A stretch of 36,941 nucleotides of DNA, from positions 1 to 36,941 of the forward strand of contig CACNQW010000012.1 of assembly GCA_902622745.1 (NCBI GenBank), in the 5' to 3' direction. The position numbers were made by a program, and so were the translations under genes. Shown piece by piece: positions 12,679 through 36,109 of the stretch (positions within the stretch are counted from its first letter, which is position 1; every line of letters starts with the position of its first letter). The notes beneath the pieces were generated by a model that saw only the letters and a program-made list of their open reading frames with translations, had not been told where the DNA came from and made no database searches. This stretch comes from an uncultured SAR116 cluster alpha proteobacterium (GTDB lineage Bacteria > Pseudomonadota > Alphaproteobacteria > Puniceispirillales > Marisalimonadaceae).

Positions 12679-13956
12679 ATGACTAAACCATTTGAATTAA
12701 CTGCTACAAAAGCTCTTGAATTAATTGATCAAAATAAACTTTCATATTTAGAATGGATTGAAAGTTGTTTAGGAAGAATAAAAATAAGAGAACCTTTTAT
12801 TAAAGCCTTTTCCTACATTGATTATAAGAAACCAATCGAATTAGCAAAAAAATGTGATCAAATAAAAAAGAAAAATTTTGGAATACCATTTGCTGCAAAA
12901 GACATTATTGATATTGAAGGTATGCCTACACAAATGGGCACACCTTTTTATTCAGAAAATATACCAAAAAGAGATGCTGGAAGTGTCGCAATCGCTAAAC
13001 ACAATGGCTGTATTCCTATTGGTAAGACAGTAACAACTGAACTAGGTCACAGACACCCTGGCCCAACTGTTAATCCTCATAATTATGAACATACCCCAGG
13101 TGGATCTAGCTCTGGCTCAGCTGCTGCAGTAGCAGAAAACATGGTACCTATTGCTTTTGGAACCCAAACAACTGGTTCTGTTATAAGACCTGCAGCTTAT
13201 TGTGGAGTTATAGGCTATAAACCAACTTATGGAGATTTTGATAAATCAGGAATTTTACCAAACTCACCATCTATAGATACATTAGGTCTTATGGCTAGAT
13301 CGATAGAAGATATACTTATTATGAGGAATATTTTAATAGAAGAAGAATGTTTATTAAATGAAAATTTAAATATTAATAATATTAGGTTTGCATTTGTTAA
13401 GACTCCCTACTGGAATAAAGTAGATGACGACACTAAAGTTCATCTAGAAAATTTTATTTCTAGTCTGATAGAATCAAAAGTTAATGTAGAAGAAATAGAT
13501 TTAAATAATTTAATTTTAGAGTCTAGTGAAATACATAAAAAAATAAGCGGATATGAATTTAAAAGATCTATTTCCGCTGAGCGTTTTCACCACTATAATG
13601 AACTAAGTGATATCCTAAGAAATGGAAGGCTTAGTGACGGTGAAAATATGTCATTGAGAGATTACCATTATTTATTTGATCAACTTGAAAGACATAAACA
13701 TATGATTAATAACAAGATATCTTCTTATGACTGTATAATATCACCGAGTGCTCTAGGCGAAGCACTAAATGGTTTAGAATATACAGGCTCACCAGTATTA
13801 AATACGACTTGGACTTTATTAGGTTTGCCATCCATAACACTACCAATGTTTAAAAGCAAAAATAATTTACCAATAGGTTGTCAATTTATTTCAAAGAAGG
13901 CTGATGATAATAACCTTTTGAGTATTTCAAAAAAAATACTCTTAGAATTTAGCTAG
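12679..13956 (+). CDS. Amidase signature family hydrolase
   Basis: This 425-residue amidase-signature enzyme has a complete Ser-cisSer-Lys triad: Lys74 in FAAKDIIDIEG, cis-Ser143 in PGGSSSGSA and nucleophile Ser167 in GTQTTGSVIRPA. Such enzymes hydrolyse amide bonds (amides, urea derivatives, acyl-amino acids); it could also be a GatA paralogue, but the lone genomic setting and short C-terminal part argue for a catabolic amidase. I chose ATG 12679, which gives the normal MTKPFELTATKALELI beginning. The upstream in-frame ATG at 12634 would add a hydrophobic 15-residue run lacking charge near its start and overlaps a TATAAT box. Its stop overlaps the convergent dctM stop by four bases (13953-13956). 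The substrate is unknown. Confidence 0.88.
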   Translation: MTKPFELTATKALELIDQNKLSYLEWIESCLGRIKIREPFIKAFSYIDYKKPIELAKKCDQIKKKNFGIPFAAKDIIDIEGMPTQMGTPFYSENIPKRDAGSVAIAKHNGCIPIGKTVTTELGHRHPGPTVNPHNYEHTPGGSSSGSAAAVAENMVPIAFGTQTTGSVIRPAAYCGVIGYKPTYGDFDKSGILPNSPSIDTLGLMARSIEDILIMRNILIEEECLLNENLNINNIRFAFVKTPYWNKVDDDTKVHLENFISSLIESKVNVEEIDLNNLILESSEIHKKISGYEFKRSISAERFHHYNELSDILRNGRLSDGENMSLRDYHYLFDQLERHKHMINNKISSYDCIISPSALGEALNGLEYTGSPVLNTTWTLLGLPSITLPMFKSKNNLPIGCQFISKKADDNNLLSISKKILLEFS

Positions 13957-15236
13957 CCAAAATGAGAAGTTATTAATAATGAAGGTAAAGTAAGAGCTAA
14001 AGCAGGAAATAAAAGTACTATTATTAAAACAACTGTATCTGATATACAAAATGGGAATGAGCCCCTAATCACAGTCGTTACAGGTAATTTTGTGACACCA
14101 CTTACAGCAAATAAGTTAAGTCCAACAGGTGGAATTACGCTTCCGATTTCTATACATAAAGCTGTTAAAATTCCAAGGTGTACAGGATCAACTCCAAGTG
14201 CTAATGCAACGGGGAAATAAATAGGTACAGTTAAAACTAAAATTGCAACACCTGTTAAAAACATAGATAAAAATAGCAAAGAACCCATTAAAGCAAACAA
14301 AAATCCAAGCCTTGATAAACCTAAAGTACCAGCCCATTCAGCTATCATCTGAGGCCATCCCATATTAGCAAGATAAAACTGAAATATACCTACACATCCT
14401 AACAAAAAGAAAACTACAGCTGTTAAATTCATAGTCCTTACAGTCGTTGGCATTAATTCTTTTAGAAAAGTCTTTCTTTTAAAAACCAGACCATAAAATA
14501 ATGCGTAACTAGCAGCAGCAGCACCTGCTTCTGTTGGAGTAAATACTCCTCCATAAAGTCCACCTAAAATTATAACTGGCATCAACAAAGCTGGCCAAGC
14601 GTCTTTAAATGAAATCCAAACCTCACACAAGTCAAATTTTCCTCGAGGTAATTTTATAAATAATGAAACGCTAATGATTATAACTGCATCACTTATTGCT
14701 AACATTATGCCAGGCACAATACCTGCAAAAAATAAATCAATAATTGATATCTCTGTAATAACACCAAACAAAATAAGAGTAATACTTGGTGGTATCAATA
14801 AAGCTATCCCACCAGCTGAGGCAATTACTCCAGCCGCCATCCATTTAGGATAACCTCTTTTTACAAGCTCCGGATATGCGATAACACTCATTGCTGCGGC
14901 CATAGCTGTTGAAGAACCTGATATTGCCCCAAATAAAACTGCTGCTAAAAGAGTTGCATATGCGAAACCACCTGGAACCCAACCAACTAAAGAATCAGCA
15001 AATCTAAATAAACCTGCAACAAGGCCTGTTCTTTCCATTAAAAAACCAGCATAAATAAAAAAAGGTATTGCTACTAAAGTATATTTAGTTAGAAAGCTAA
15101 AAAAAGCTTCGAATAAAGTACTGTAAGTAAGGAAATCATCAAATAGTACACCAATCGCAGTAGCACCAGCTAATGAAATTCCAATAGGAACTCCAGCAAA
15201 TAAAAGCATAAATAATGTACTACCTAAACTCCACAT
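13953..15236 (-). CDS. dctM: TRAP transporter large permease subunit DctM (system 1)
   Basis: This 427-residue integral membrane protein of the TRAP-T family provides the ion-coupled (usually Na+) transport pathway. It has about 12 hydrophobic segments and family motifs: FAGVPIGISLAGATAIG at the start, FFIYAGFLMERTG near 55-70, GAISGSSTAMAAAMS near 100, and two FTPTEAGAAAA/IGSVIPPVGLNLF blocks in the second half. Its start lies 13 bases after the dctQ stop. It is the last gene of the leftward arm of the catabolic island, and its 3' end overlaps the amidase stop by four bases. Substrate specificity resides in the DctP protein; the gene context suggests a carboxylate that feeds the CoA-ester genes upstream. 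Confidence 0.95.
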   Translation of the reverse strand: MWSLGSTLFMLLFAGVPIGISLAGATAIGVLFDDFLTYSTLFEAFFSFLTKYTLVAIPFFIYAGFLMERTGLVAGLFRFADSLVGWVPGGFAYATLLAAVLFGAISGSSTAMAAAMSVIAYPELVKRGYPKWMAAGVIASAGGIALLIPPSITLILFGVITEISIIDLFFAGIVPGIMLAISDAVIIISVSLFIKLPRGKFDLCEVWISFKDAWPALLMPVIILGGLYGGVFTPTEAGAAAASYALFYGLVFKRKTFLKELMPTTVRTMNLTAVVFFLLGCVGIFQFYLANMGWPQMIAEWAGTLGLSRLGFLFALMGSLLFLSMFLTGVAILVLTVPIYFPVALALGVDPVHLGILTALCIEIGSVIPPVGLNLFAVSGVTKLPVTTVIRGSFPFCISDTVVLIIVLLFPALALTLPSLLITSHFG

Positions 15237-15249
15237 AACAATTTTCTAT

Positions 15250-15801
15250 CTAAACATCCGTTGATAATTCAACTTTTTCAGTGAAATGATCACCCTTGAT
15301 ATAACTATGAATATCTTCAATAATTTGAAAAAAAGCCACTAGTGACATTAAACCTAAGCCTATAGCTAAACAAGTATGAAATGGCCACATATAAAAAAAT
15401 AAACTTTCAGACAACTCACTTATTTTAATTGAATATTGTATAGTAGATATAGCTGTATAAGTTAATGATGCACAAAAAATACAAACTGTAGTTGAAACAA
15501 AAATTTTTGCAAATCCAATTAATCTAAAAAACTTATAAGCACTCAATAATTGAAGTACAGCACTCATAACTAAATGCCCTCTTTTAATTTGTGTTACACA
15601 AATGAAAAAAGCAACAGAGCACATTGTAGCATAAATAACTGCATCCTGACCCCACTCAAATACAACTCCTAAAATATATCTTCTAAAAATTTCAGCTAAA
15701 GCAAATAAGGTTACACATATCATCAAAAGAGCTGACATAGTTCCTAATATCTTCTCGATCCAGAGTTTAATCAATTCAGAAATTTGGTAAAATTTTTTCA
15801 T
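15250..15801 (-). CDS. dctQ: TRAP transporter small permease subunit DctQ (system 1)
   Basis: This 183-residue membrane protein has four hydrophobic segments, the DctQ pattern. The first helix runs through GTMSALLMICVTLFALAEIF with the conserved following RRYI, then FEWGQDAVIYA, a third segment with the HLVMSAV-type motif, and a last helix at LAIGLGLMSLVAFFQI. It pairs with DctM to form the membrane part of the transporter. The ATG at 15799-15801 has no clear Shine-Dalgarno sequence. A strong terminator-like hairpin ends about ten bases upstream of this start, so expression likely depends on read-through from dctP. Confidence 0.9.
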   Translation of the reverse strand: MKKFYQISELIKLWIEKILGTMSALLMICVTLFALAEIFRRYILGVVFEWGQDAVIYATMCSVAFFICVTQIKRGHLVMSAVLQLLSAYKFFRLIGFAKIFVSTTVCIFCASLTYTAISTIQYSIKISELSESLFFYMWPFHTCLAIGLGLMSLVAFFQIIEDIHSYIKGDHFTEKVELSTDV

Positions 15802-15811
15802 AATTAGTCGT

Positions 15812-15842
15812 AAAAAAAGGCCTAAAAAAATTTAGGCCTTTT
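15812..15842 (-). terminator. Intrinsic terminator-like hairpin between dctP and dctQ
   Basis: On the reverse strand, AAAAGGCCTAAA (15842-15831) pairs perfectly with TTTAGGCCTTTT (15826-15815) around a four-base loop, and the T run continues through 15812. The GGCC core and U-rich tail are those of a rho-independent terminator. It lies eight bases after the dctP stop and ten bases before the dctQ start, inside what is otherwise one operon. It probably permits partial read-through, making much DctP and little DctQM, or protects the 3' end of the dctP message. Confidence 0.8.
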
Positions 15843-15850
15843 CTTCAAAG

Positions 15851-17020
15851 TTACTTACGTGACTTCTTTTTATATAAAGCTGTTCCTTTTGCAAATTTTG
15901 CAAAGTCTGCAGCAAAAGCAGAACAATCTGTCTTTTCTAGTGGATCTGATCCTAACGGATTTGCTTTAACTAAAGCAGCAGCTTCTGTTGTGAATTGATC
16001 AACCATTTTATCACCAGTTGCATCAACTTTAGTTTTAATCCAGTTATTTGTAGCACCACCTTCAGCCTTTTGTAAAACACCCGCTTCTGATGGGTTCATT
16101 ACATAAATACCAGGCTTAGACTTATCTGTTACTTTATACTTATCAACAAGTCTCTTATCATTACAAAAGTTTATTGCCTTTTGATATGGTATAAAATCGT
16201 TAACGATAATATCAGATAGAGCTTTTTGCTGTTCTGGTGTTAGCGATGACCACCATTTGTTAGATGCACCAATCCAATAGTAGTCACCAACAATACCATT
16301 GATGCCTGCTACAGTAAAATATGGAGCTTGCTCTTTTGTTGCGTTAAATCCACCTAAACTTGTTAATAATCCATCAATCACTCCAGTTTGAAGTGCAGGT
16401 GGAACATCTCCAAATGACATTGTAGTTGGGTTTGCCCCTAATGATCCAAGCAATGCATTTTCAGCAGGTCCCATACTTCTAATTTTTTTACCCTTAAAGT
16501 CAGCTGGAACAAGCAATCTACTCTTAACTGCTCCTGCGCCCATATACATACTTAAGTGACCAGAACCAAAAATTGTAATTCCATGTTTGTCATTAAATAC
16601 TTTCTTTAACTGAGCAAAAGTTTTTGTACCATCTAATCCATTAATAGCACCAGGTGTAGTTAACTTACCAGCTCCTACAATTGTATTAGCTAGAGGCTCA
16701 ACTGAAGAAGTTTTACCAAACTGACCAGTCATCATTTCTAAATTACCTTTTGTTAAGGCCTGTGTACCTTTTGGCACATTATAAAGTGATTTAGCCCAGT
16801 AAATTTGTACTTTACTTCCTGGAATTTTCTTTTCAACTTGCTCTGCAAAAAACATTTCTGCAATAGCTGCAGGATGTGGCGGACCAGAGTGGTCTGATGC
16901 CCATCTCATTTTAATTGGTTCAACTTTACCGTGTCCATCTGCGATAGCATTTGTTGAACCTAATGAAAATACAGCTGCAACTGCTGCAACTGCTGTCATT
17001 AATTTCTTATCTAATCTCAT
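15851..17020 (-). CDS. dctP: TRAP transporter solute-binding protein DctP (system 1)
   Basis: This 389-residue secreted binding protein has a typical signal peptide: MRLDKK, a hydrophobic alanine-rich core and a cleavage region near STNAIADG. The mature part has DctP-family features, including KKIRSMGP with the conserved substrate-carboxylate-binding arginine, and LQTGVIDGLLTS. It is longer than the usual ~330 residues, like TRAP binding proteins of the DctP subgroup with C-terminal extensions. I chose ATG at 17018-17020 because GGAGG (17032-17028 on the reverse strand) sits seven bases upstream and the signal peptide starts there; the ATG 18 codons upstream (17074) adds a non-secretory segment. 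It follows the CoA-transferase gene after 122 bases that contain a possible promoter, and precedes a terminator-like hairpin. The ligand is probably an organic acid. Confidence 0.93.
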   Translation of the reverse strand: MRLDKKLMTAVAAVAAVFSLGSTNAIADGHGKVEPIKMRWASDHSGPPHPAAIAEMFFAEQVEKKIPGSKVQIYWAKSLYNVPKGTQALTKGNLEMMTGQFGKTSSVEPLANTIVGAGKLTTPGAINGLDGTKTFAQLKKVFNDKHGITIFGSGHLSMYMGAGAVKSRLLVPADFKGKKIRSMGPAENALLGSLGANPTTMSFGDVPPALQTGVIDGLLTSLGGFNATKEQAPYFTVAGINGIVGDYYWIGASNKWWSSLTPEQQKALSDIIVNDFIPYQKAINFCNDKRLVDKYKVTDKSKPGIYVMNPSEAGVLQKAEGGATNNWIKTKVDATGDKMVDQFTTEAAALVKANPLGSDPLEKTDCSAFAADFAKFAKGTALYKKKSRK

Positions 17021-17111
17021 GAATTTTCCTCCAAAACATAGATTTAATTTATTAATTATTAAGACACTAAACATATAATACTCTGTTAATCAAAGGTTTT
17101 TTAGTTCATAT

Positions 17112-17141
17112 GTTATATAAAAAAAATATTGATTAACTCAA
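17112..17141 (-). promoter_or_regulatory. Possible sigma70-type promoter for dctP
   Basis: On the reverse strand TTGAGT (17141-17136) is separated by 18 bases from TATAAC (17117-17112), roughly 85 bases before the dctP ribosome-binding site. It lies in the only sizeable gap (122 bases) inside the leftward arm, so separate transcription of the transporter is plausible. One arm of a 9-bp inverted repeat (17129-17137) overlaps the -35 box. The match is moderate and the region is AT-rich. Confidence 0.35.
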
Positions 17142-17142
17142 A

Positions 17143-18345
17143 TTATATAATATCTTTATTTTTCAATGACTTAATTTCTTCCATTGAATATCCTAATTTG
17201 GTAAATATCTCTTCATTGTGCTCACCTAATTCAGGTGCTGTTTTATCAACATGATTTTCAGTATCGAATCTTATTGGCGTTTTTAGTAGGCTTATATTTT
17301 TTTTATTTTTAGTCGTTATAGTCTGAATGTTATTTCTTTCTTTAACAAATTGATTTTCAAGTGATGACTTAACATCTAATATTGGTGCAGCTGGAACATT
17401 ACCTGCAAAAATTTTTAGCCATTCTGACGTAGACTTTTTACTTAATTCTGTATCTAAAATTTCTGTTATTAGACTTCTATTCTCCTGTCTCAATTTAAAA
17501 TTTAAAAACCTTTTATCTTCTCCCAAGTCTTTTCTATCTATATATTCACAAAGAATAGGCCAAAAACTCTCTTTATTGCACATTAAATAAATCCAACCAT
17601 CAGAAGTTTTATACAATTGACATGGGACTAAAACAGGATGAGCAGACCTATCTAATCTTTCAGGTTTATAATCTGAGTTTAAGGCCCACGCAGCTACATA
17701 ACTTTGATTAAACATAGCCGTATCAAAAAGACTTACATCAATATCTCTTCCATTCCCTGTATCTCTCGCTGATAAAACACCACTCACTAAACTAAATGCC
17801 ATAGTTAATCCAGCCATGTAATCTACAATAGACAAACCAAATCTTGCCGGGGGAGCATCAGGTTCCCCAGTTAAAGAAAAGTACCCTGCCTCAGCTTGCA
17901 TTAAATAATCATAACCTGGCCAATTTTTTCTTGATCCTTCTCTTCCATAAGCAGAACAATGAGCAGCAACTATTTTTTTATTATATTGCTTTAATTGGTC
18001 AAATGTAATTCCTAACTTTTCAGGTACATCACCTCTAAGATTATTACAAACTGCATCGCTTTCTTTAACTAATTTACCTAAAATTTCTTTTCCTTCATCA
18101 GATAAAATATTAAGAGTTATACTTTTTTTGTTTCGGTTTAATGCTTGAAAGAAGATACCTGATGCTGAATTTCTTTCTTCATCAATGAAATAAGGACCAA
18201 GTGCTCTTAAGTAGTCTCCATCAGTTCCAGCTGGCTCAATTTTTATTACCTCAGCCCCTAAATCTGATAAATATTGTGAACCAAATGGACCTGCTCCATA
18301 TTGTTCAAATGCTAAAACTTTTAATCCTGCTAAAGGTAGGCTCAT
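17143..18345 (-). CDS. Family III CoA-transferase (CaiB/BaiF type), copy 1
   Basis: This 400-residue class III CoA-transferase moves CoA between carboxylic acids through a covalent aspartyl intermediate. It opens with LAGLKVLAFEQYGAGPFG, and the predicted nucleophile is Asp175 in GLSIVDYMAG. RNKKSITLNI and GREGSRKNWPGYDYLMQAEAG are family blocks. Mesaconyl-CoA C1-C4 transferase, succinyl-CoA:mesaconate and formyl-CoA transferases belong to this family. In this setting (MaoC hydratase, CitE-like lyase, hotdog hydratase upstream) activation or isomerisation of a C5 dicarboxylate is the favoured role, but this is inference. It lies 15 bases after the MaoC gene and is followed by the dctP promoter region. 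Confidence 0.92.
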   Translation of the reverse strand: MSLPLAGLKVLAFEQYGAGPFGSQYLSDLGAEVIKIEPAGTDGDYLRALGPYFIDEERNSASGIFFQALNRNKKSITLNILSDEGKEILGKLVKESDAVCNNLRGDVPEKLGITFDQLKQYNKKIVAAHCSAYGREGSRKNWPGYDYLMQAEAGYFSLTGEPDAPPARFGLSIVDYMAGLTMAFSLVSGVLSARDTGNGRDIDVSLFDTAMFNQSYVAAWALNSDYKPERLDRSAHPVLVPCQLYKTSDGWIYLMCNKESFWPILCEYIDRKDLGEDKRFLNFKLRQENRSLITEILDTELSKKSTSEWLKIFAGNVPAAPILDVKSSLENQFVKERNNIQTITTKNKKNISLLKTPIRFDTENHVDKTAPELGEHNEEIFTKLGYSMEEIKSLKNKDII

Positions 18346-18360
18346 TTTTACAACTCTTAG

Positions 18361-18894
18361 TTACTTTGTTTTTGAAATAATTTCATCAACAACACTATGA
18401 CCTCTTTTAGCAACTAAAAAAGATCTAACCATATCCATTACAATCACATTATCTTGATTTTTTCCAATATGCCTTACTCTTACTATACCTTGGGTCGGTC
18501 TTGATTTAGATTCTCTTTTATCAAGTACCTCTGTTTCAGAATATAGAGTATCTCCAACAAATACAGGTGCAGGTAATTTTATTTCTTCCCAGCCTAAATT
18601 TGCTATTGCTTTCTGACTAGTACCACTCACGCACATCCCCGTAACCAATGATAAGGTAAATGCAGAATTTACAAGATAACGTTTAAATTCTGTTTTAGAC
18701 GCATAATTAGCATCAAAATGCACAGGATGTGTATTCATGGTTAAGTTTGTGAACCAAATATTATCTGTTTCTGTAATAGTTCGACCAGGCCAATGTTCGT
18801 AAATGTCCCCTACATTAAAATCTTCAAAATATCTACCTGGATCTTCTCTATATCTATTTGGTCCAACCTTTTTTATTCCATATAACTCACTCAT
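18361..18894 (-). CDS. MaoC-type hotdog hydratase
   Basis: This 177-residue single-hotdog protein of the MaoC/hydratase-2 family reversibly adds water to an enoyl-CoA. The catalytic segment is NTHPVHFDANYA beginning at residue 54. The usual Asp-x-Asn-Pro-x-His appears as Asn54-Thr-His56-Pro-Val-His59, with Asp61 kept; this variation is also known to me from mesaconyl-CoA-hydratase-like proteins, though without a database search I treat that as a lead. A second conserved part is LPAPVFVGDTLYSETEVL (108-125), the overhang segment of beta-methylmalyl-type dehydratases. The 177-residue length is about half of the ~350-residue mesaconyl-CoA hydratase (Mch), so it would act as a dimer. Its ATG abuts the stop of the lyase gene directly (TAAATG), implying translational coupling. 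Confidence 0.88.
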   Translation of the reverse strand: MSELYGIKKVGPNRYREDPGRYFEDFNVGDIYEHWPGRTITETDNIWFTNLTMNTHPVHFDANYASKTEFKRYLVNSAFTLSLVTGMCVSGTSQKAIANLGWEEIKLPAPVFVGDTLYSETEVLDKRESKSRPTQGIVRVRHIGKNQDNVIVMDMVRSFLVAKRGHSVVDEIISKTK

Positions 18895-19707
18895 TTAAAC
18901 CTCTCTTTCAATAATGGACTTAGCCCTTGCCAAAACAGGAGCATCAACCATTTTACCTTCAAAATTAAAAGCGCCAGTACCTGCAGTTTCAGATGCTTTT
19001 AAAACTCCTTTTGCCCAAATCAATTCTTCATCAGTTGGATTATATGCCCGATGTATAGGTTCAATTTGATCTGGGTGAATAGCAAATTTTCCTTTAAAAC
19101 CCATTGATTTAATAAGCTTAGTTTCACTAAAACATCCTTCCGCATCACGAAAATCTAACCAAACACCATCCAAAGCAATAGTATTGTAAAGAGATGAAGC
19201 GTTAACTATCTTTCCTCTAGAATAAGCCAGAGAATCTATACCCATATCTCCACCTGTCATAGCTGTAAAGTCAGCAGAACCAAAACCTATTCCTGAAAAG
19301 TTTATACCTTCAACATTCCAAAATTCGATATTAGCAATTCCTTTAGGTGTCTCAATTTGTGGAAGAACTAATATGTCTTTTCCTAAATCATTTAAAAATG
19401 ATTTACACTCTTTAGCATCTTCAATTTTTGGTATAGCGATAGAATAAGGAAGATTTGGACAACTCTTCAACATTTTAATATCATCATTATAATCATTAGA
19501 ATCTAAACCATTTATCCTAAGTAAAAATTTTTCAGGTTGATTATCAAAATTGCTTTTTGAAAACTCGATGAAATTTTTACGCCCAAAATCTTTCTTATCT
19601 TTAGCAAGTCCATCTTCTAAATCAAAAATGACTTTATCAGCATTTGATCCCAAAGCTTTTGGAACTCTTTCAATTTTATCCAATGGTAAAAATAAAATAC
19701 TTCTCAT
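18895..19707 (-). CDS. CitE-like CoA-ester lyase (HpcH/HpaI aldolase superfamily)
   Basis: This 270-residue TIM-barrel protein belongs to the citrate-lyase-beta/malyl-CoA/citramalyl-CoA lyase group. Visible motifs are MRSILFLP at the start, FDLEDG (28-33), the CoA-contacting arginine in LLRING (Arg64), Glu119 in LPQIETPKG and Asp146 in GFGSADF, the last two being the expected Mg2+ ligands. The KFAIHPDQIEPI stretch (207-218) closes the barrel. Family enzymes cleave citramalyl-CoA or malyl-CoA into acetyl-CoA plus pyruvate or glyoxylate. The size is closer to stand-alone lyases such as citramalyl-CoA lyase (RipC/Ccl) than to long malate-synthase-like Mcl. It sits directly before the MaoC gene with no gap, and 22 bases after the MmgE/PrpD gene. 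Confidence 0.92.
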   Translation of the reverse strand: MRSILFLPLDKIERVPKALGSNADKVIFDLEDGLAKDKKDFGRKNFIEFSKSNFDNQPEKFLLRINGLDSNDYNDDIKMLKSCPNLPYSIAIPKIEDAKECKSFLNDLGKDILVLPQIETPKGIANIEFWNVEGINFSGIGFGSADFTAMTGGDMGIDSLAYSRGKIVNASSLYNTIALDGVWLDFRDAEGCFSETKLIKSMGFKGKFAIHPDQIEPIHRAYNPTDEELIWAKGVLKASETAGTGAFNFEGKMVDAPVLARAKSIIEREV

Positions 19708-19729
19708 AACTAACTATTTTCTAATTCCT

Positions 19730-21049
19730 TTACTTTAAAAGATTCGTAATATCTTTAGCGTGATATTTTTCAGGACTATTTAATACATTAAAAATTTCAT
19801 TAGATAAATTATCTGACAAAAGAGAAGAAGATTTAGTTAAAATCTTTTTCTCTAATAATTCATTTTCAATTTTATTATTCAAGTCATGACTGTTTTTATA
19901 TATTTCTGAATCATCTTTTAATTCAATTAATGCTTCGGTATTAGTCATTTGATCATTTGGAATAACTTCAACTTTATCTCGAGTTTTTACAATTTTTTCA
20001 TCAAAGCAAATTTCATCATTATAACTATCTAGCCTTCCAGTATCCACCCCGTGAAGAGACATTGCGGCGGTTAACCTATATGAAAACTTTGCCTCTAATC
20101 CTGTTTTTGGGCTATCAATATTACAAACTTGTAACCAAGAAGGTTGTGTTTGAATTGAAATTTTTTCAATTGAATCTGGATTAAAATTATTTTTTGTTTT
20201 CAATTCGTCTAATGCCTCAAGAAAAGCATGCAATCCATGACAACAGGCATGAAATTTATATTTAATTTCAGGAAACAAAAAATCTTTTCCTAAACCATTT
20301 ATTGCTGCCTCAGGTATAGTTTCGTCCCATGCATGTGTTTTCAAAAAACCTTGATTACATTCAATCCCGTTTTCACAACTAACAAATCCTAATTTCGATA
20401 ATTTAGCAGCCTCAATTCCATTTGATGCAGCAATACCTGCATGAAATGGTTTACCCATTGTACCAAATTGTGATTTTAGACCTGATGCTCTTGTTGAAAC
20501 TATACCAAGTGCATTTTCGATTTGTTTAGCATTTAGTTTCAATAATTTTGATGCAACTAAAGTTGCACCAAAAGCACCACTGGTAGCAGTTTGATGAAAA
20601 CCTTTATTATAATGTGAGTAACCAAGGATATGCCCTAACCTAGTTGAAACTTCTACACCGCACATATATGCCAACATTATTTCATCAATTGATGAGCCTA
20701 ACTCTTCACCAAGTGCTAAAGCCGTAGGAAAAGCACTGGCAGTTGGATGACCAGTAAATAAAAAATGAGTGTCATCATAATCCAAAGCATGACCAATAGT
20801 TCCATTTACAAAAGCTGCTGATTTAGAAGATACCTCTTGACCATTCGAAATTAATTTTGAATGACCTTTAGTTTGTTCTTCTTCAATTAATTTAGTTACA
20901 ATTTTTGATACTGGCTCTTCTTTCGCTGCATATGCAACACCACACCAGTCAATCATTGACATTTTTGAAAAAAATATCATTTCATCGTTAAAATTTTGTA
21001 AAGTAGCCTGTGATACAAAATTACTAAAAATTTTTGTCAGATCTGTCAT
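19730..21049 (-). CDS. MmgE/PrpD family protein (copy 2)
   Basis: This 439-residue protein carries the family signature HALDYDDTHFLFTGHPTAS and KGFHQTATSGAFGA. Relatives include 2-methylcitrate dehydratase and cis-aconitate decarboxylase (the itaconate-forming enzyme). Located in one operon with CoA-transferase, hydratases and a CitE-like lyase, it could make or dehydrate a C5/C6 tricarboxylate that is then activated to a CoA ester; this is a hypothesis. Two ATGs stand side by side at 21052 and 21049. AGGAG (21060-21056 on the reverse strand) is three bases from the first and six from the second, so the second is preferred. The site overlaps the end of the upstream gene, indicating coupling. 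It is diverged from copy 1 at 11225-12598. Confidence 0.88.
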   Translation of the reverse strand: MTDLTKIFSNFVSQATLQNFNDEMIFFSKMSMIDWCGVAYAAKEEPVSKIVTKLIEEEQTKGHSKLISNGQEVSSKSAAFVNGTIGHALDYDDTHFLFTGHPTASAFPTALALGEELGSSIDEIMLAYMCGVEVSTRLGHILGYSHYNKGFHQTATSGAFGATLVASKLLKLNAKQIENALGIVSTRASGLKSQFGTMGKPFHAGIAASNGIEAAKLSKLGFVSCENGIECNQGFLKTHAWDETIPEAAINGLGKDFLFPEIKYKFHACCHGLHAFLEALDELKTKNNFNPDSIEKISIQTQPSWLQVCNIDSPKTGLEAKFSYRLTAAMSLHGVDTGRLDSYNDEICFDEKIVKTRDKVEVIPNDQMTNTEALIELKDDSEIYKNSHDLNNKIENELLEKKILTKSSSLLSDNLSNEIFNVLNSPEKYHAKDITNLLK

Positions 21050-21060
21050 CATTTACTCCT

Positions 21061-21912
21061 TTAAAACTTTGCTTCCGCTCTCATAGTTACACCAAATTCT
21101 TTTGTTGCACCCCAACAGCTCACTGAACCATCATCCATTTTATCTACACCAACCACATACTCACTATTTGCAAAAACAGGCGCCATGACTTTATGAGTGA
21201 ATGACTTTACTTGTTTGCCCATCAACTTTTCAGCAGCTCTTAATAAATAAGTTGCCTGAAGTGGACCATGTACAATCAAGCCAGGATAATTTTCTTCATT
21301 AACTGTGTAAGGATGATCATAATGAATTCTATGTCCTACAAATCCAATTGCAGAATATCTAAATAATATCGTTGGATGCATAAAAATTTTTTCACTTAAA
21401 TCTGCTCTCTCAGGTATTTCTTTCGAATAACCTGATCCACCTCCAGACTTTGAAATATCTCTATAAACAATATTATGTTTTTCATTAATGGTTACTTCAT
21501 CATTGACTAAGAAGTTGTATTCTGCTGTTACAAAACACAAAAGACCAGTTCGTCCTTCTTTAACTTGAATATCAGCTACAGTTGATTGTTTAACAACTTT
21601 GTCGCCTACTCTAATTGGTTTTAATACTTTAATTTCACTTCCTGCCCACATTCTTCTTGGCAATGGAACTGGCGGTAAAAATTCTCCCAACGCTGGATGT
21701 GAGTCTACACCAAGTTCATCATTTTTAACCAAATTCCATCCTAACATCCAATGTAATCCAGAAGTGACTGGCTCTCCATCTTTAGGATTTCCTATATCCA
21801 TATTAAGCGTTGCTCTATATCTTTGTTCGACTATTGGTGTCACATAATCAGTAACATTATCTATTTTCCCTATCCATTTTCTTAAATGATCAATATCAAC
21901 TTTTGTAGACAT
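21061..21912 (-). CDS. HTD2/FAS1-like double-hotdog hydratase (mesaconyl-C4-CoA or itaconyl-CoA hydratase type)
   Basis: This 283-residue protein has an N-terminal hotdog with GLHWMLGWN (52-60), LPPVPLPRRMWAGSE (79-93) and a C-terminal hotdog with RYSAIGFVGHRIHYD (185-199) followed by YPGLIVHGPLQA (209-220). This pattern and length fit the FAS1-like dehydratase group that includes mesaconyl-C4-CoA hydratase of the 3-hydroxypropionate bi-cycle and itaconyl-CoA hydratase of itaconate breakdown. His194, His197 and Asp199 are kept. In the relatives I know, an Asn usually stands where this protein has Val192 (TFNGHRIHYD versus GFVGHRIHYD), which may alter activity. It is the first gene of the leftward arm; AGGGA precedes its ATG on the reverse strand. 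The assignment of the precise substrate is inference. Confidence 0.85.
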   Translation of the reverse strand: MSTKVDIDHLRKWIGKIDNVTDYVTPIVEQRYRATLNMDIGNPKDGEPVTSGLHWMLGWNLVKNDELGVDSHPALGEFLPPVPLPRRMWAGSEIKVLKPIRVGDKVVKQSTVADIQVKEGRTGLLCFVTAEYNFLVNDEVTINEKHNIVYRDISKSGGGSGYSKEIPERADLSEKIFMHPTILFRYSAIGFVGHRIHYDHPYTVNEENYPGLIVHGPLQATYLLRAAEKLMGKQVKSFTHKVMAPVFANSEYVVGVDKMDDGSVSCWGATKEFGVTMRAEAKF

Positions 21913-29384: not shown

Positions 29385-30554
29385 TTAAAATGGTAATCCA
29401 ACGTAATTTTCGGCAAATGATTTCTGAGCTACTTCTGAATTTTCTAAATATTCAATTTCAGTCTCTTGCATTTTTTGATCAAAATCAGACTGATTGGGAA
29501 ATTTATGAAAAGTTACTGTCATCCACCAACTAAATCTAATGGCTTTCCAAACTCTATTTAATGCTCGTTTTGAATATTTAGATAACACCACTTTATTTTT
29601 TTCTTGGTAATATTCTTCTAGGGTCTCAACTAAATAGTTTACATCTGAAAAAGCTAAATTTAATCCTTTTGCACCTGTAGGTGGAACTATATGAGCAGCA
29701 TCACCAACTAAAAATAGATTTCCATAACTCATTGGTTCAACCACAAATGATCTTAGAGGAGCTAGTGACTTCTCTATAGATGGACCTGTTACGAGATTTT
29801 CTAAAGATTCTTCTGGTAATCTTTTTTTTATTTCATTCCAGAAACGATCATCACTCCATTCAGTAGTTTTTTCATCAATTGAAGTTTGGATATAATATCT
29901 ACTTAAATTTTCATTCCGCATAGAAGCCAGAGCAAAACCTGTTTTATGGTTTGCATAAATTAATTCTTCGCTAATTGGAGGAGTTTCAGATAAAATTCCT
30001 AACCATGCAAAAGGGTAAACTCTCTCAAAGGTTTTAATTTTTTCTTTAGGAATTGTATTTCTTGAAACACCATGAAATCCATCACAACCTATTATGAAAT
30101 CCGCATTAATTTTTGTTTCTTTATCAACGATCTTGCATGTAACGTATGGACTACTTGTTTCAATTTCATGAATTTTTACATCTTTAACTGAATTAAAAAC
30201 TTTACCATTATTTTTTTCTCTTAAATCATATAGATCTTTTGTCACTTCTGTTTGACCATAAACAGTTACTTTTTGATTAATCAATTTTTTAAAATCCATT
30301 CTAAATCCACGATTTTTTAAAGACAAAAAAATGCCATCATGAGAAAAACCTTCATCCTTTATCCTTTTGAAAATTCCTGCCTTTTTAAGTAATTTTATGG
30401 TTCCTTCTTCTAAAACACCTGCTCTTATTCTGGATAACACATGTTCTTTTGTGTGTTTTTCTAAAACTAAACAATCAATATTAATATCACTTAAAAGCTG
30501 CGACAATAGTAAACCTGAAGGGCCACCTCCAATGATAAGAACTTGGGTTCTCAT
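29385..30554 (-). CDS. pobA: 4-hydroxybenzoate 3-monooxygenase
   Basis: This 389-residue FAD/NADPH enzyme hydroxylates 4-hydroxybenzoate to protocatechuate. It lines up along its whole length with the well-studied Pseudomonas enzyme (394 residues): GGGPSGLL at 9-16 for FAD, SRIRAGVLE around 41-49 with the conserved arginine, ERVYPFAWLGIL, ELIYANH with the substrate-contacting Tyr, the Ser-x-Arg pair in FALASMRN, GDAAHIVPPTGAKGLNLA for FAD, and the final AENYVGLPF with the C-terminal Tyr. Nothing needed for activity is missing. The next step, protocatechuate ring opening, is not encoded in the window by any recognisable PcaGH or LigAB. The TRAP transporter genes upstream on the same strand (stop 122 bases away) may bring in the aromatic acid. 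Confidence 0.97.
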   Translation of the reverse strand: MRTQVLIIGGGPSGLLLSQLLSDINIDCLVLEKHTKEHVLSRIRAGVLEEGTIKLLKKAGIFKRIKDEGFSHDGIFLSLKNRGFRMDFKKLINQKVTVYGQTEVTKDLYDLREKNNGKVFNSVKDVKIHEIETSSPYVTCKIVDKETKINADFIIGCDGFHGVSRNTIPKEKIKTFERVYPFAWLGILSETPPISEELIYANHKTGFALASMRNENLSRYYIQTSIDEKTTEWSDDRFWNEIKKRLPEESLENLVTGPSIEKSLAPLRSFVVEPMSYGNLFLVGDAAHIVPPTGAKGLNLAFSDVNYLVETLEEYYQEKNKVVLSKYSKRALNRVWKAIRFSWWMTVTFHKFPNQSDFDQKMQETEIEYLENSEVAQKSFAENYVGLPF

Positions 30555-30676
30555 AAAAATATCCAGTGAATCTTATTTCTTAATAACAAAAACATATGTA
30601 AGAATTATAATAAATGAATGTTTTATTAAAAATCAAATTGAATTAAAAAATTAATTTTAAATTTTCGTTACATTTG

Positions 30677-31996
30677 TTAATAAAAAGCCCATAACGTTAT
30701 TAGAGTAATACTTGGAAAAGAAAATAATAGTATTATTCTGATTATATCACTTAACAAAAAGGGTATAACACCTTTAAAAGTATCTATTATAGGTACATCC
30801 TTAGCCATTTTATTAATTATAAATACATTTAGTCCAACAGGTGGAGTTATTAAACCAACTTCAACAACAACTAGAGTTAATATTCCAAACCAAATTGCTG
30901 TTTCTTCTGGAGATAATCCAAAATCAAGTGACATCACTAAAGGAAAAAAAACTGGGATTGTTAACAATATCATTGCTAAGCTATCCATCAAACATCCTAA
31001 AAACAGATATAAAATCATAATACAAGCAACAACTATTAAAGGTTCTAAATTATTTTCTCTTGAAAATTCAGTTAATAAATTTGGAAGCTGAGTTAAAGCA
31101 ATAAAAGAATTAAAAAATTCTGCACCTAATAAAACAAAAAATATCATTCCTGTTGTAACTGCTGTACTTTCAATAACATCAATAAATGACTTTATGTTAA
31201 ATGATTTATTTGTAATGGCTATAATACCGGTTCCTGCAGCACCAATTGCAGCACCTTCAGTAGGTGTAAAAAAGCCCATGTAAATTCCACCAATCATGAC
31301 AACAAAGATCAAGATTATATGCCAAATATTTTTAAATAAATACATACGGTCTTTCCAAGGAACTCTATCTTTAATTGGTCCAGAATTTTGGTTTAATCTG
31401 ACATATAAACTAATTGCAACTACATAACCTAAGGCAGCAAGTAAACCAGGTATGAAAGCACATAAAAACATTTTAGCTATGTTTTGTTCGGTCAGAATAG
31501 AATAGATTATTAATATAACTGAAGGAGGAATTAAAATGCCTAGAGTTCCCCCTGCAGCTAATGCACCAGTACTTAGTGCTCCTGAATACCCTAATCTTCT
31601 TAATTCTGGCAAGGCTACTTTTCCCATGGTTGCTGCAGTCGCCAATGATGATCCACAAATTGCGCCAAATCCAGCACATGCTCCAACCGCAGCCATAGCA
31701 ACCCCCCCTTTTCTATGTCCTAAACAAGCACCAGCAAACTTAAACAATGCTTCACTCATACCAGCTTTAGATGCGAAATTACCCATAAGTAAAAAAAGTG
31801 GAATAACCGAAAGAGAGTAATTTGAAAATAAATGCCATGCACTTGTTTTAGCCAGAGACATAATAGGAAGCCAACCTGTAATTAAAATTGTACCAGTACA
31901 TCCAACTAATAACATGGCTAAACCAATAGGAACTCTGAATGCTAAAAGTGAAAATAGAATTGGAAAAGCAAGAATACCAAGAATATATTTGTCCAT
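30677..31996 (-). CDS. dctM: TRAP transporter large permease subunit DctM (system 2)
   Basis: This 439-residue membrane protein has about 12 hydrophobic segments and the DctM blocks FRVPIGLAMLLVG, CGSSLATAATMG, ILIPPSVILIIY, FTPTEGAAIGA and LITPPVGLNVFII. It forms the transport channel of the second TRAP system. The start lies two bases after the dctQ stop (TAATTATG), so the two subunits are translated together. The protein is clearly diverged from the DctM at 13953-15236, consistent with a different substrate. The neighbours (pobA downstream, extradiol dioxygenase and ring hydroxylase divergently upstream) suggest an aromatic or related carboxylate. Confidence 0.95.
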   Translation of the reverse strand: MDKYILGILAFPILFSLLAFRVPIGLAMLLVGCTGTILITGWLPIMSLAKTSAWHLFSNYSLSVIPLFLLMGNFASKAGMSEALFKFAGACLGHRKGGVAMAAVGACAGFGAICGSSLATAATMGKVALPELRRLGYSGALSTGALAAGGTLGILIPPSVILIIYSILTEQNIAKMFLCAFIPGLLAALGYVVAISLYVRLNQNSGPIKDRVPWKDRMYLFKNIWHIILIFVVMIGGIYMGFFTPTEGAAIGAAGTGIIAITNKSFNIKSFIDVIESTAVTTGMIFFVLLGAEFFNSFIALTQLPNLLTEFSRENNLEPLIVVACIMILYLFLGCLMDSLAMILLTIPVFFPLVMSLDFGLSPEETAIWFGILTLVVVEVGLITPPVGLNVFIINKMAKDVPIIDTFKGVIPFLLSDIIRIILLFSFPSITLITLWAFY

Positions 31997-31998
31997 AA

Positions 31999-32529
31999 TT
32001 AACTTCTCGATAGAACTAATTCACGATAGAATGTGTATAAACAGCATACAGATAATAATCCAAATGAAAATGACACTGGCAAAAAGGGTATCCAAATTGG
32101 AAATTGTAGTAACATAGTTTCTTCTTGATAATTATACATGTCTCTTGCTCCGAAAAACATCCTCCAAGTAAAGAACAAGGCTATAAGTCCATAAATAACT
32201 GAGCTAATACAATCAAAAAAAGCGATTTTTTTGAAATTTAATTTTGCAGTTATGAAATCTACAATAACATTACCTTTTTTTAAATGGCACAAAGGTAAAA
32301 AGGAAGATATCGCAATTGCACTGCCAATTTCAACCAATTCAAAATCACCCACTAGAGGATTTAAGAATATAATTCTACTTAATATTGAAATAAAGTTAAT
32401 TAAAATAACAATGACAAGAATTATACCTCCTAAAATAGCGAAGATATAAGCTAAATCATATAAAAAACGACCAAATTTATCATTTGGTCGTTCCGTAAGT
32501 TCATCAATAGGATTATTTGATAAACTCAT
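31999..32529 (-). CDS. dctQ: TRAP transporter small permease subunit DctQ (system 2)
   Basis: This 176-residue protein has four hydrophobic segments in the DctQ arrangement: helix 1 around IFAILGGIILVIVILINFI, the GDFELVEIGSAIAISSFLP block with the conserved acidic residue, CHLKKGNVIVDF, and a fourth helix SFSFGLLSVCCLYTFY. It starts four bases after the dctP stop. Codons 13-22 (residues around ERPNDKFGRF) coincide with a perfect 11-bp hairpin followed by U residues, which is annotated separately and could lower expression of the permease relative to DctP. No clear Shine-Dalgarno sequence is seen, so coupling to dctP translation is probable. Confidence 0.9.
   Translation of the reverse strand: MSLSNNPIDELTERPNDKFGRFLYDLAYIFAILGGIILVIVILINFISILSRIIFLNPLVGDFELVEIGSAIAISSFLPLCHLKKGNVIVDFITAKLNFKKIAFFDCISSVIYGLIALFFTWRMFFGARDMYNYQEETMLLQFPIWIPFLPVSFSFGLLSVCCLYTFYRELVLSRS
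32462..32492 (-). terminator. Terminator-like hairpin inside the 5' end of dctQ (system 2)
   Basis: On the reverse strand AACGACCAAAT (32492-32482) pairs perfectly with ATTTGGTCGTT (32476-32466) around a five-base loop, and the run of T continues to 32462. It begins 37 bases downstream of the dctQ ATG and encodes dctQ residues in frame. It has the form of a rho-independent terminator, placed so that most transcripts that end there would encode only DctP. The structure is seen directly; termination is inferred. Confidence 0.65.
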
Positions 32530-32533
32530 TTAA

Positions 32534-33562
32534 TTATAGTGATTTTTCATATTTTGAAATTAAGCTTTTTGCTGTATCTAAAAGTTTTTGAGCGTCTAAA
32601 CCTTTTTTATTAGTACTCTTAATCCAATCTTCAGTAACTTTTTTTCCAGCAGCTTTCATTTTAGCTAGTTCTTCACCTTGCAAAGTAAAAAACTGTCCAC
32701 CAGCATCTACTGCTAATTTTCTTGCAGGAACTTCAAAGCCGTCCCAAAGTTTACCTGCCTCTTTTGCTAAAGATAAACCCGAATTGTTGTCAATAACCTT
32801 TTTTTGCGATGGTGATAAACTCTCATACTTTGCTTTATTCATTATGAACAAAAAAGGTGTTGTATATAAACCTCTACTACCTGCAACATTAGTATGTGCT
32901 TTTGTTAATTCTTGCAATTTAAATGAAGGCATAATTTCCCAAGGCACAACCATTCCATCGATTACTCCTTTTGACAATGACGGGGCAACTTTTGGAACTG
33001 GCATCCCGACTGGAGTGGCACCCATACTTTTAAGCATAGTTGTAATTACTCTTGTAGGACCTCTCATCTTCATCCCTTGAAAATCACCAATAGACTTAAT
33101 CAGCTTATTTTTTGTATGTATCATACCAGGAGCGTGTACATGGACTGTTAAGATTTTATAATCTTTTAGATCTTCTGCTCCTATGGTTTCTACATACTCC
33201 TGAACCGCTTGTGATGTTATTACTGATTTTGTTGGCAAAAATGGTAATTCAAAAGCTTCAAGTCTTGGAAATCTTCCTGGTGTATAACCCGCAACTGTCC
33301 AAACTATGTCTACTACCCCTTCTCTGACTTGATCAACTAGCTGGGGTGGCTTTCCTCCAAGTTGCATAGAATAATACATCTCGGTTATAATTTCACCATT
33401 TGATTCTTTTTTTACTTTTTCTGCCCAAGGCAAAACAAATTTTGCATTAGAGTTAGCTGGTGCAGGAACAAATGTATGAAATTTCAAAGTTACCTTATCA
33501 GCTAGTGCAGAAAATGAAAAAAAAGTTAATGATAAAATAATCATTTTTATAAATATTTTCAT
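32534..33562 (-). CDS. dctP: TRAP transporter solute-binding protein DctP (system 2)
   Basis: This 342-residue periplasmic protein has a signal peptide (MKIFIK, hydrophobic core, cleavage near SALA-DK) and DctP-family features: FQGMKMRGPTRV with the conserved substrate-binding arginine, SKGVIDGMVVPWEIM and a C-terminal helical lid. GGAGG (33572-33568 on the reverse strand) is five bases before ATG, which fixes the start. It is the first gene of the second TRAP operon and is divergent from the extradiol dioxygenase (113 bases between starts). The ligand is unknown; neighbours point to an aromatic or related carboxylic acid. Confidence 0.94.
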   Translation of the reverse strand: MKIFIKMIILSLTFFSFSALADKVTLKFHTFVPAPANSNAKFVLPWAEKVKKESNGEIITEMYYSMQLGGKPPQLVDQVREGVVDIVWTVAGYTPGRFPRLEAFELPFLPTKSVITSQAVQEYVETIGAEDLKDYKILTVHVHAPGMIHTKNKLIKSIGDFQGMKMRGPTRVITTMLKSMGATPVGMPVPKVAPSLSKGVIDGMVVPWEIMPSFKLQELTKAHTNVAGSRGLYTTPFLFIMNKAKYESLSPSQKKVIDNNSGLSLAKEAGKLWDGFEVPARKLAVDAGGQFFTLQGEELAKMKAAGKKVTEDWIKSTNKKGLDAQKLLDTAKSLISKYEKSL

Positions 33563-33675
33563 TTTTTCCTCCTAAATTAAGAGAAATTAAATCACAAAAA
33601 AAAATAACTTACTAATATAAATTTAAAAAATTGATTTTAAAAAATCGATTGATAAAATTTAACAAGGTAATTGAT

Positions 33676-34653
33676 ATGGCAATAAAAGCTCTTTCATATT
33701 TAGGCGTTACGTCAGAAAAAATCCAAGATTGGTCTGATTATGCAACAAAGAAACTTGGTATGCAGGAAATTGATAAAACAAAAAACTCTTTGATGCTAAG
33801 AATGGATGATCAAAAACAAAGGTTTTCTATTTCTAATGATGGTGGTGAAGGTTTATCATTTTTAGGCTGGGAAGTAGAAAACAAAAGCGACTTAGATAAT
33901 TTTGCATCAATATTAGATCAAAATAATGTCAAAGTCTCTAGAGGACAAAAATTCCTTTGTGATAAAAGATATGTTGAAGATTTAATTTATTTTAAAGATC
34001 CTGCTGGAAACCAAATTGAATTTATATTTAATCCATTTAAAACCGATGAAGAGTTTAAACCTGGAAGAGCAATATCTGGTTTCAAAACTGGTATTTGTGG
34101 TTTAGGTCACGCAGTATTGCATACTGACAATATAGAACCACTCGTAAAATTTTATCGGGATTTGTTGGGTTTTAAAGTAAGTGATTTTAGTTTTGAACCT
34201 ATTAGACTTCACTTTTTTCATGTCAATGAAAGACATCATAGTTTTGCGCTTGTTGAATCAGGCAAAGTTGGTTTTCATCATTTTATGGTTGAATACAATA
34301 ATTTGGATGATGTTGGACAGGGCTATGATCTTCTTCAATTTGAAGACAATAAAATTGCATATACCATGGGAAGACACACTAATGACTACATGACATCATT
34401 TTATTCTTATTCACCTTCAGGATTTTTTGTAGAAAATGGTTGGGGAGGAAGGCTCATTGATCCAAACACATGGAAGCCTGAATTGACTGATATCGGACCT
34501 AGTTTTTGGGGACATGAAAGACTTCATCTTCCAAAAGATCAAAGGCTAAAATTTAGAGACAAAAGGATTGAAATAGCAGCTAATGGAATTCAGGCACCTT
34601 TAATAATTGATTGTCCTTGGCTTTATCAAAATCAATTCAAAAAAGATGCATAA
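33676..34653 (+). CDS. Type I extradiol ring-cleavage dioxygenase (VOC family, BphC-like)
   Basis: This 325-residue two-domain VOC protein has the iron ligands of type I extradiol dioxygenases in the C-terminal half: His145 (GLGHAV), His202 (FHHFMVE) and Glu253 (FFVENGW). Other active-site residues of BphC are matched: the HH pair 187-188 in NERHHSFAL and Tyr245 in YSPSGF. The enzyme should open a catechol ring next to the hydroxyls. I start at ATG 33676, preceded by AAGG at 33664-33667; the extra 15 residues from ATG 33631 lie upstream of the conserved MAIKALSYLGV start. The next gene, a ring hydroxylase, begins within its last codons (8-bp overlap), so the two act in one pathway. The C-terminal tail after 265 is family-typical. 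The substrate ring is not known. Confidence 0.9.
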   Translation: MAIKALSYLGVTSEKIQDWSDYATKKLGMQEIDKTKNSLMLRMDDQKQRFSISNDGGEGLSFLGWEVENKSDLDNFASILDQNNVKVSRGQKFLCDKRYVEDLIYFKDPAGNQIEFIFNPFKTDEEFKPGRAISGFKTGICGLGHAVLHTDNIEPLVKFYRDLLGFKVSDFSFEPIRLHFFHVNERHHSFALVESGKVGFHHFMVEYNNLDDVGQGYDLLQFEDNKIAYTMGRHTNDYMTSFYSYSPSGFFVENGWGGRLIDPNTWKPELTDIGPSFWGHERLHLPKDQRLKFRDKRIEIAANGIQAPLIIDCPWLYQNQFKKDA

Positions 34654-36109
34654 AACTAAATGTAATGTTTTAATTGTTGGTTTTGGTCCAACTGGATCAG
34701 TGCTTGCTAATTTACTATCAAAATACAATATCACTATCCATATTTTAGAAAAAGAAAACGAAATTTATAATTTGCCTAGAGCTGTTCATTTTGATGATGA
34801 AATTATGAGGATATTTAAAAGTATAGGTATTTTTAAAAAATTTTTAAAAAAAACTATTATCAATAAGGGTACAAAATTTGTTGATGAATATGGTAATCTA
34901 ATATTAGATTGGCCAAGACCAAAAAAAATTACAGAAAATGGTTTTTACCCAAGTTATAGATTTCATCAGCCAGATCTTGAAAAAATTTTAAGAAAAAACT
35001 TAATTAAAAATAAAAGAGTTAAAATTAGTTATAATTCTGAGTTGTTAGAAATATCAGATAAAGGTGATGTTGTTTCTGCAAAATATTTAGATAAAGTCAG
35101 TAATTCTTTTCAAATCATTAATGCAGATTATGTTATAGGATGTGATGGAGCCAATTCTTTTGTTAAAGAATATATTAGTCCAGAAATAATAGATTTTGGT
35201 TTTGAAGAAAAATGGGCAGTTATTGATTTAATTATGAAACAAAATAACAATAACTTACCTGACAGAACTATACAATATTGCAGTAAAAAAACTCCTACAA
35301 CTTACTGTAGAAATGTTGGTAGAAGAAGAAGATGGGAATTTTCTTTAGATAAAAATTCAGTAGATAAAGAAGTTTTAAATGATGATAAAATTTGGCATTT
35401 TTTATCTAAATGGATTACCCCAGAAGATGCAACCATAGAAAGAAAAACAATTTATATTTTTAAGTCATTGATTGCAAAAAAATGGAGAAAAGGAAGAGTA
35501 TTTATTGCTGGAGATGCTGCTCATTTATCACCTCCATTTATGGGTCAAGGAATGTGTTCTGGGATTAGAGACGTGTCAAATCTATTTTGGAAAATAGCTT
35601 ATTGCTGTAATTTTGGACATAAAGAAAAGCTTCTCAAAACTTATGAGAGTGAAAGATTAAAAAATGTAAAAGAATATATCATAACCACAATTAATATGGG
35701 AAGATTATTAAATTCAATTGGTGACTCAAATGTTTCTGATACAGTAAAAGAAGAAAAAGACGGATCTAAAAAAATGACTTCTATAAAACCCCCTTTAGGT
35801 CCTGGATTAGGTGATAATAAAGATAAATTGAGAGGAAAAATTTTTCCTTATATAAATTTACAAAATTCAAACGTTTCAAATTTTGACACACAATTTGAAA
35901 CAGAGTTAGTTTTGCTTTCAAAACAAAACGTAGATAATCAAAAAATCAAGCATATAAATGTGAATAAATATGAAGAAGTAATGAAAGTTTTCAATAAACT
36001 AAATATTAGTGCTTTGATTTTAAGACCTGATAGATTTATTTTAAGTTCATTAAATGATAATTCAAAAATAAATGATTTTATCGATAAATCGATATTGCAG
36101 TTTGGTTGA
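34646..36109 (+). CDS. FAD-dependent aromatic-ring hydroxylase (MhpA-like)
   Basis: This 487-residue flavoprotein monooxygenase of the phenol-hydroxylase/MhpA group has GFGPTG (12-17) for FAD, PRAVHFDDEIMR (44-55), IGCDGANS (164-171) and GDAAHLSPPFMGQGM (289-303). The motifs are those of 3-(3-hydroxyphenyl)propionate hydroxylase, which makes a catechol for extradiol cleavage. Compared with MhpA (about 550 residues) the C-terminal thioredoxin-like domain is short and divergent. The start is ATG 34646, overlapping the dioxygenase stop by eight bases; an in-frame ATG at 34607 lies well inside that gene. The gene order dioxygenase-hydroxylase-second VOC enzyme suggests an operon for a hydroxylated aromatic acid. 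The pairing is established biochemistry; the exact substrate is inference. Confidence 0.9.
   Translation: MHKTKCNVLIVGFGPTGSVLANLLSKYNITIHILEKENEIYNLPRAVHFDDEIMRIFKSIGIFKKFLKKTIINKGTKFVDEYGNLILDWPRPKKITENGFYPSYRFHQPDLEKILRKNLIKNKRVKISYNSELLEISDKGDVVSAKYLDKVSNSFQIINADYVIGCDGANSFVKEYISPEIIDFGFEEKWAVIDLIMKQNNNNLPDRTIQYCSKKTPTTYCRNVGRRRRWEFSLDKNSVDKEVLNDDKIWHFLSKWITPEDATIERKTIYIFKSLIAKKWRKGRVFIAGDAAHLSPPFMGQGMCSGIRDVSNLFWKIAYCCNFGHKEKLLKTYESERLKNVKEYIITTINMGRLLNSIGDSNVSDTVKEEKDGSKKMTSIKPPLGPGLGDNKDKLRGKIFPYINLQNSNVSNFDTQFETELVLLSKQNVDNQKIKHINVNKYEEVMKVFNKLNISALILRPDRFILSSLNDNSKINDFIDKSILQFG
36079..36094. repeat. Perfect palindrome TATCGATAAATCGATA
   Basis: TATCGAT-AA-ATCGATA is a seven-base inverted repeat with a two-base centre. 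It lies in the last codons of the hydroxylase gene, 20 bases before the ATG of the following VOC gene. An ATCGAT also occurs at 33644-33649 in front of the extradiol dioxygenase. It could be an operator or chance; function is not supported further. Confidence 0.3.

Follow-up and report, generated by a model that had tools for sequence, protein, structure and literature searches.

The two TRAP operons and their hairpins

The window, that is, the whole 36,941-nt stretch of DNA that was analysed, carries two TRAP transporter operons on its minus strand. It belongs to an alphaproteobacterial genome of the SAR116 cluster, and its closest named relatives are single-cell genomes and MAGs of SAR116. 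In the second, dctP, the solute-binding protein gene whose transcript is presumed to be protected (32534-33562; 342 aa), is followed by dctQ for the small membrane subunit (31999-32529; Pfam DctQ; 176 aa), dctM for the large membrane subunit (30677-31996; 439 aa) and then an FAD monooxygenase gene (29385-30554). As the earlier note had stated, only 4 nt separate dctP from dctQ, and a perfect 11-bp stem is written into codons 13-22 of dctQ. This hairpin (32466-32492, minus strand; peptide E-RPNDKFGR) comprises the 5' arm AACGACCAAAT (32492-32482), the 5-nt loop GATAA (32481-32477) and the 3' arm ATTTGGTCGTT (32476-32466), and two additional G.U pairs extend it to 32494/32464. A U-rich stretch, TTTTATATGA (32456-32465; codons F-L-Y), lies 3' of the stem, and the minus strand across the whole element reads GG-AACGACCAAAT-GATAA-ATTTGGTCGTT-TTTTATATG.

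On the dctQ strand the hairpin folds at -15.5 kcal/mol, far beyond coding controls; the near-palindrome also folds on the plus strand, where a 71-nt segment reaches -13.2 kcal/mol (z -3.7), a value equalled by none of 200 shuffles. A ranking of downstream hairpins over all 34 gene 3' ends of the window puts the two dctP genes first and second (-17.9 and -15.5). An automated terminator scan of the window did not call the dctQ hairpin, probably because the program extended the stem into the T run. No second copy of the hairpin sequence was found in the window at up to three mismatches or in the 1.39-Mb genome at up to two, and a dispersed repeat was rejected on account of this uniqueness. The possibility that the dctQ start is misplaced and the stem truly intergenic was likewise rejected, as relatives preserve the RP..FGR peptide in the dctQ frame; reading the sequence by eye, there is no in-frame ATG past the stem, nor any GTG or TTG between the stem and the first membrane helix. 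A second, weaker hairpin occupies dctQ codons 1-11 from the start codon (32496-32528, minus strand; 12 pairs including G.U, 9-nt loop). It is found within the genus only, in most of whose members it is present with G.U changes, and its synonymous p value is about 0.002-0.01.

The first TRAP operon has a dctP-dctQ gap of 49 nt containing the intergenic AAAGGCCTAAATTTTTTTAGGCCTTTTTTTA. The counterpart hairpin, AAAAGGCCTAAATTTTTTTAGGCCTTTTTTT (15802-15850, minus strand), lies between dctP (15851-17074) and dctQ (15250-15801) and has seven T at its end. CoA-transferase, MaoC/mesaconyl-CoA-hydratase-like and MmgE/PrpD genes stand alongside this operon (13953-21912, minus strand), and these neighbours suggest uptake of a branched dicarboxylic acid. 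The second operon is flanked (29385-36109) by FAD monooxygenase genes at 29385-30554 and 34607-36109 and by a divergent ring-cleavage-type dioxygenase gene (33631-34653), which suggests an aromatic acid as its substrate.

Selection on the stem as sense-strand RNA

One account of a coding-region stem is that it is a by-product of the peptide RP..xFGR, with its self-complementary Arg-Pro and Gly-Arg codons, and has no RNA function. CGN-CCN and GGN-CGN do pair at first and second positions, and a given peptide therefore imposes several of the pairs. However, in the register of this stem third positions face third positions (Arg1-Gly, Pro-Phe or Val, and so on), and these, though unforced, co-vary. 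When codons were redrawn according to local usage for an unchanged peptide (2,000 draws per codon solution), the observed hairpin was matched in 0-4 of the 2,000 draws for most codon solutions (p about 0.001). The exceptions were two codon solutions with G.U pairs, matched in 6 and 13 draws. The solutions covered SAR116 genera, L038 and L040, together with L073, L075 and L076 of the gammaproteobacterial Sedimenticola group. Stems with different codons, or with different peptides at that place (for example, WARVHTLVH/WTRAHALVH in L238 and L243, and L073), also occur in Sedimenticola and in further Alpha- and Gammaproteobacteria. A peptide by-product is thus rejected by the synonymous null and the wobble covariation, and we regard it as barely credible.

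The covariation is pronounced. The Arg1-Gly codon pairs seen are CGA/GGT, CGT/GGA, CGC/GGG, CGG/GGC and CGT/GGG, and the Arg-wobble and Gly-wobble positions rank first among 13,695 third-position pairs of dctQ, a control set that shares the same dctQ phylogeny and so retains relatedness. At least nine changes of this wobble pair occurred on the dctQ tree; as this tree comes from a quick method and its branches beyond SAR116 are long and uncertain, only the change count is used. In an alignment of 32 homologous stem sequences, 95.1% of cells are paired, both sides have changed in 7 of the 12 pairs, and the covariation score was reached in none of 500 shuffles; shifting the partner by 1-3 columns reduced pairing to 21-47%. 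The check named beforehand in the earlier note, a search for compensatory changes with varying codons, was therefore passed strongly. Among the cells within intact stems that are not Watson-Crick, 22 are G.U and 2 are A.C, which indicates that the structure forms in the dctQ-sense RNA. A DNA-binding palindrome or an antisense-strand RNA was rejected on this asymmetry and because the stem sequence changes freely. The dctQ hairpin is an mRNA element, maintained by selection on the RNA and encoded within the start of the dctQ reading frame.

Association of the hairpin with an upstream dctP

We surveyed 84 distinct dctP-dctQ junctions in the SAR116 family, using the dctQ-dctM junctions, dctM ends and gene interiors of the fetched loci as controls. 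Hairpins of -12 kcal/mol or stronger occur at 64% of the dctP-dctQ junctions, compared with 1.3% of dctQ-dctM junctions, 0% after dctM and 0-0.9% in gene interiors (0 of 504 windows in dctP interiors). The Fisher p value of 8e-20 overstates independence since the rows are related; the contrast stands within the same operons. Nearly all of these family hairpins are intergenic, with a median start 13 nt past the dctP stop, and location inside dctQ is a trait of the orthologue group to which the window belongs. Beyond the family, among 55 homologues with dctP upstream, mostly from Alphaproteobacteria, 33 (60%) have a hairpin of -15 kcal/mol or stronger, against 3.6% of control windows, and none was found in the 13 homologues without dctP directly upstream. 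The element therefore tracks dctP, not dctQ.

This distribution bears on the idea that the stem is a translation-level device, slowing ribosomes as they enter dctQ, so that less DctQ is made or its insertion into the membrane is timed, with RNA ends unaffected. Several wider homologues place the hairpin within dctQ at +22 to +36, encoding the peptide RPTDPVGR or unrelated peptides, and wider homologues often start the stem at this distance inside dctQ even where the gap is 40 nt, as such a device would have it. However, the mostly intergenic hairpins of SAR116 junctions are unable to affect dctQ elongation, and dctQ genes without an upstream dctP have no strong hairpin. We therefore consider a purely translational role improbable.

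The hairpin is not essential, as a strong one is missing from one TRAP subfamily and has been lost in one clade of orthologues. The subfamily (L125-L139 and L143-L151; gap of about 18 nt, DctQ start MRNKLNKLYLYSGY) is widespread in SAR116, has a junction without a strong hairpin and thus offers a natural negative for stoichiometry tests. In the stem-loss clade (L024, L029 and L156) the hairpin is weak or absent; Arg1 has become Lys or Asn (or is encoded by AGG), and Arg2 has become His in one case. All close relatives keep the stem, and the loss of the stem under the same protein sequence, which the earlier note had named as evidence against its proposal, was not encountered: the single clade without it has mostly changed its Arg residues as well. 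In the divergent related dctQ copies L159 and L160 (G019:C71 and G063:C28), the RP..FGR motif and the hairpin are both gone.

Proposed protection of dctP mRNA

We propose that the dctQ hairpin is probably a 3' protective hairpin that stabilizes dctP mRNA relative to dctQM. The polycistronic dctPQM mRNA would be cut by an endonuclease downstream, and 3'-to-5' exonucleases, for example PNPase, would degrade the fragment back through dctM and dctQ until they stall at the dctQ stem, leaving an intact, translatable dctP message. DctP, required in periplasmic excess, would in this way be made in larger amounts than the membrane subunits. We infer the cleavage, the stalling and the protein ratio; a PNPase gene is present in the genome, and RNase E is encoded in the genus. 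As translating ribosomes would melt the stem, protection would require that few ribosomes occupy dctQ. Elsewhere among the TRAP operons of the SAR116 family, the hairpin in the dctP-dctQ gap would have an equivalent role, and it is because dctP and dctQ nearly abut in the second operon that the stem would lie within dctQ and shape its residues (RP...FGR).

The main rival of a protective hairpin is a partial intrinsic terminator or polarity element, at whose U tail polymerase would stop when dctQ is untranslated, cutting dctQM transcription relative to dctP. In the genus of the window the stem is followed by TTTT-ATAT, as a stem is followed by a U-rich stretch in a Rho-independent terminator, the first-operon counterpart ends in its run of T, and among 47 distinct SAR116 junction hairpins, 24 show five or more T in the next eight bases; the U-rich tail of the window's own copy thus allows for partial termination. 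However, the T content of the tail is what the peptide F-L-Y and AT-rich codon usage predict under synonymous recoding, with no excess, and in several homologues hardly any U tract, or none, follows the retained stem (tails CTGCACACC in L076, CGGTGCACA in L075 and CTTGATGAC in L234). In contrast to a terminator, therefore, the stem is selected but the U tail is not measurably so, and that combination suits a barrier to 3' exonucleases. An attenuator would be marked by a mutually exclusive fold or a leader peptide; the junction folds in the genus instead consist of two compatible hairpins without conserved competing pairing, and no competing anti-terminator fold was seen among the minimum-energy folds inspected. 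The reading of the element as a terminator or coding-region attenuator, put forward in the earlier note, is thus not upheld. Its observation that both operons carry such an element after dctP, reached by two routes, survives as regards a selected hairpin, intergenic in one operon and within dctQ in the other, but not as regards its terminator nature. Partial termination on its own appears unlikely, and it could act jointly with protection.

Long perfect stems at 3' ends would also be compatible with RNase III processing, or with a small RNA that derives from the end of the dctP transcript and terminates at the stem. Against both, the stem sequence changes freely, no conserved seed was seen, and the Rfam 15 covariance models gave no match at E <= 1 across 32200-32800, on which ground a known RNA family was also rejected. 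We consider either role very improbable.

Protective hairpins embedded in coding sequence are already known. In E. coli, the upstream gene is stabilized in 34 operon gene pairs, and in 26 of them a stable hairpin marks the 3' limit of the stable portion. The downstream ORF contains 17 of these 26 hairpins, which lack a U tract and are additionally conserved at wobble positions. Where ABC operons decay differentially, the stabilized gene is invariably the binding protein (PMC5927463). The dctQ element shares with this differential operon decay (Dar and Sorek 2018, PMC5927463) a stable hairpin early in the ORF of the downstream gene, an upstream gene for a transporter binding protein and conservation with constraint at wobble positions, the last seen here in the synonymous null and the wobble covariation. 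By this likeness, its function most likely works as that of the E. coli hairpins does. Differences also exist. The case for the E. coli hairpins was built on term-seq and decay data, that for the dctQ hairpin on sequence comparison; the former have a mean position 107 +/- 56 nt inside the ORF and no U tract, whereas the dctQ stem starts at +38 and has some U tail in the genus of the window; and the E. coli comparison was made within Enterobacteriaceae, whereas the compensatory silent changes in dctQ span bacterial classes and concern a TRAP operon. The malE-malF structure of E. coli (Newbury 1987, as described in PMC5927463) similarly follows a binding-protein gene ahead of membrane subunits, but it is described there as intergenic with a demonstrated effect, whereas the dctQ hairpin is coding and its effect is a proposed one. 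SRPS elements in Clostridium are related to protective hairpins (PMC4423207, PMC8219983). Known operon 3' stem-loops that set subunit stoichiometry, mostly without a U run, are also alike, although those with an assigned role are intergenic and in other operons.

The dctQ hairpin is best read as an unusually well conserved protective hairpin of a known kind. The description of the arrangement as little described is only partly justified, since E. coli provides documented cases of ORF-embedded hairpins that shield the gene before them (PMC5927463). No earlier description of a dctP-dctQ hairpin was found in open-access papers, the literature covered by our search. As far as our searches show, the new elements are the TRAP operon case, silent changes that compensate one another in different bacterial classes, and a hint that a DctQ peptide motif serves the RNA.

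This last point may be extended, tentatively but as a serious possibility, to the view that RNA dictates the RP...GR motif of DctQ before the first membrane helix, its codons having to form the stem that protects dctP, that the motif decays on stem loss (K/N/H in the L028/L156/L157 clade), and that one kind of stability element at the 3' end of dctP, moving between the gap and the dctQ ORF, is common to TRAP operons of Alpha- and Gammaproteobacteria. The Arg replacements in the stem-loss clade are a hint in this direction, being expected if the residues served RNA; protein drift could give the same. An apparent protein motif may thus be an RNA motif, and the locus is an unusually clean case of overlapping codes, in which silent positions co-vary across bacterial classes and keep an RNA stem in a membrane-protein gene. 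Our proposal also gives a testable, sequence-based account of how binding protein may come to exceed TRAP membrane subunits, a ratio that matters to oligotrophic ocean bacteria, which are hard to study in culture.

Hairpins were also seen beside ABC solute-binding protein genes of the genus (Pfam SBP_bac_3 and Peripla_BP_6; L253-L309), where 75% of 52 distinct 3' ends have one of -12 kcal/mol or stronger within 150 nt; part of these carry T tracts and resemble ordinary terminators.
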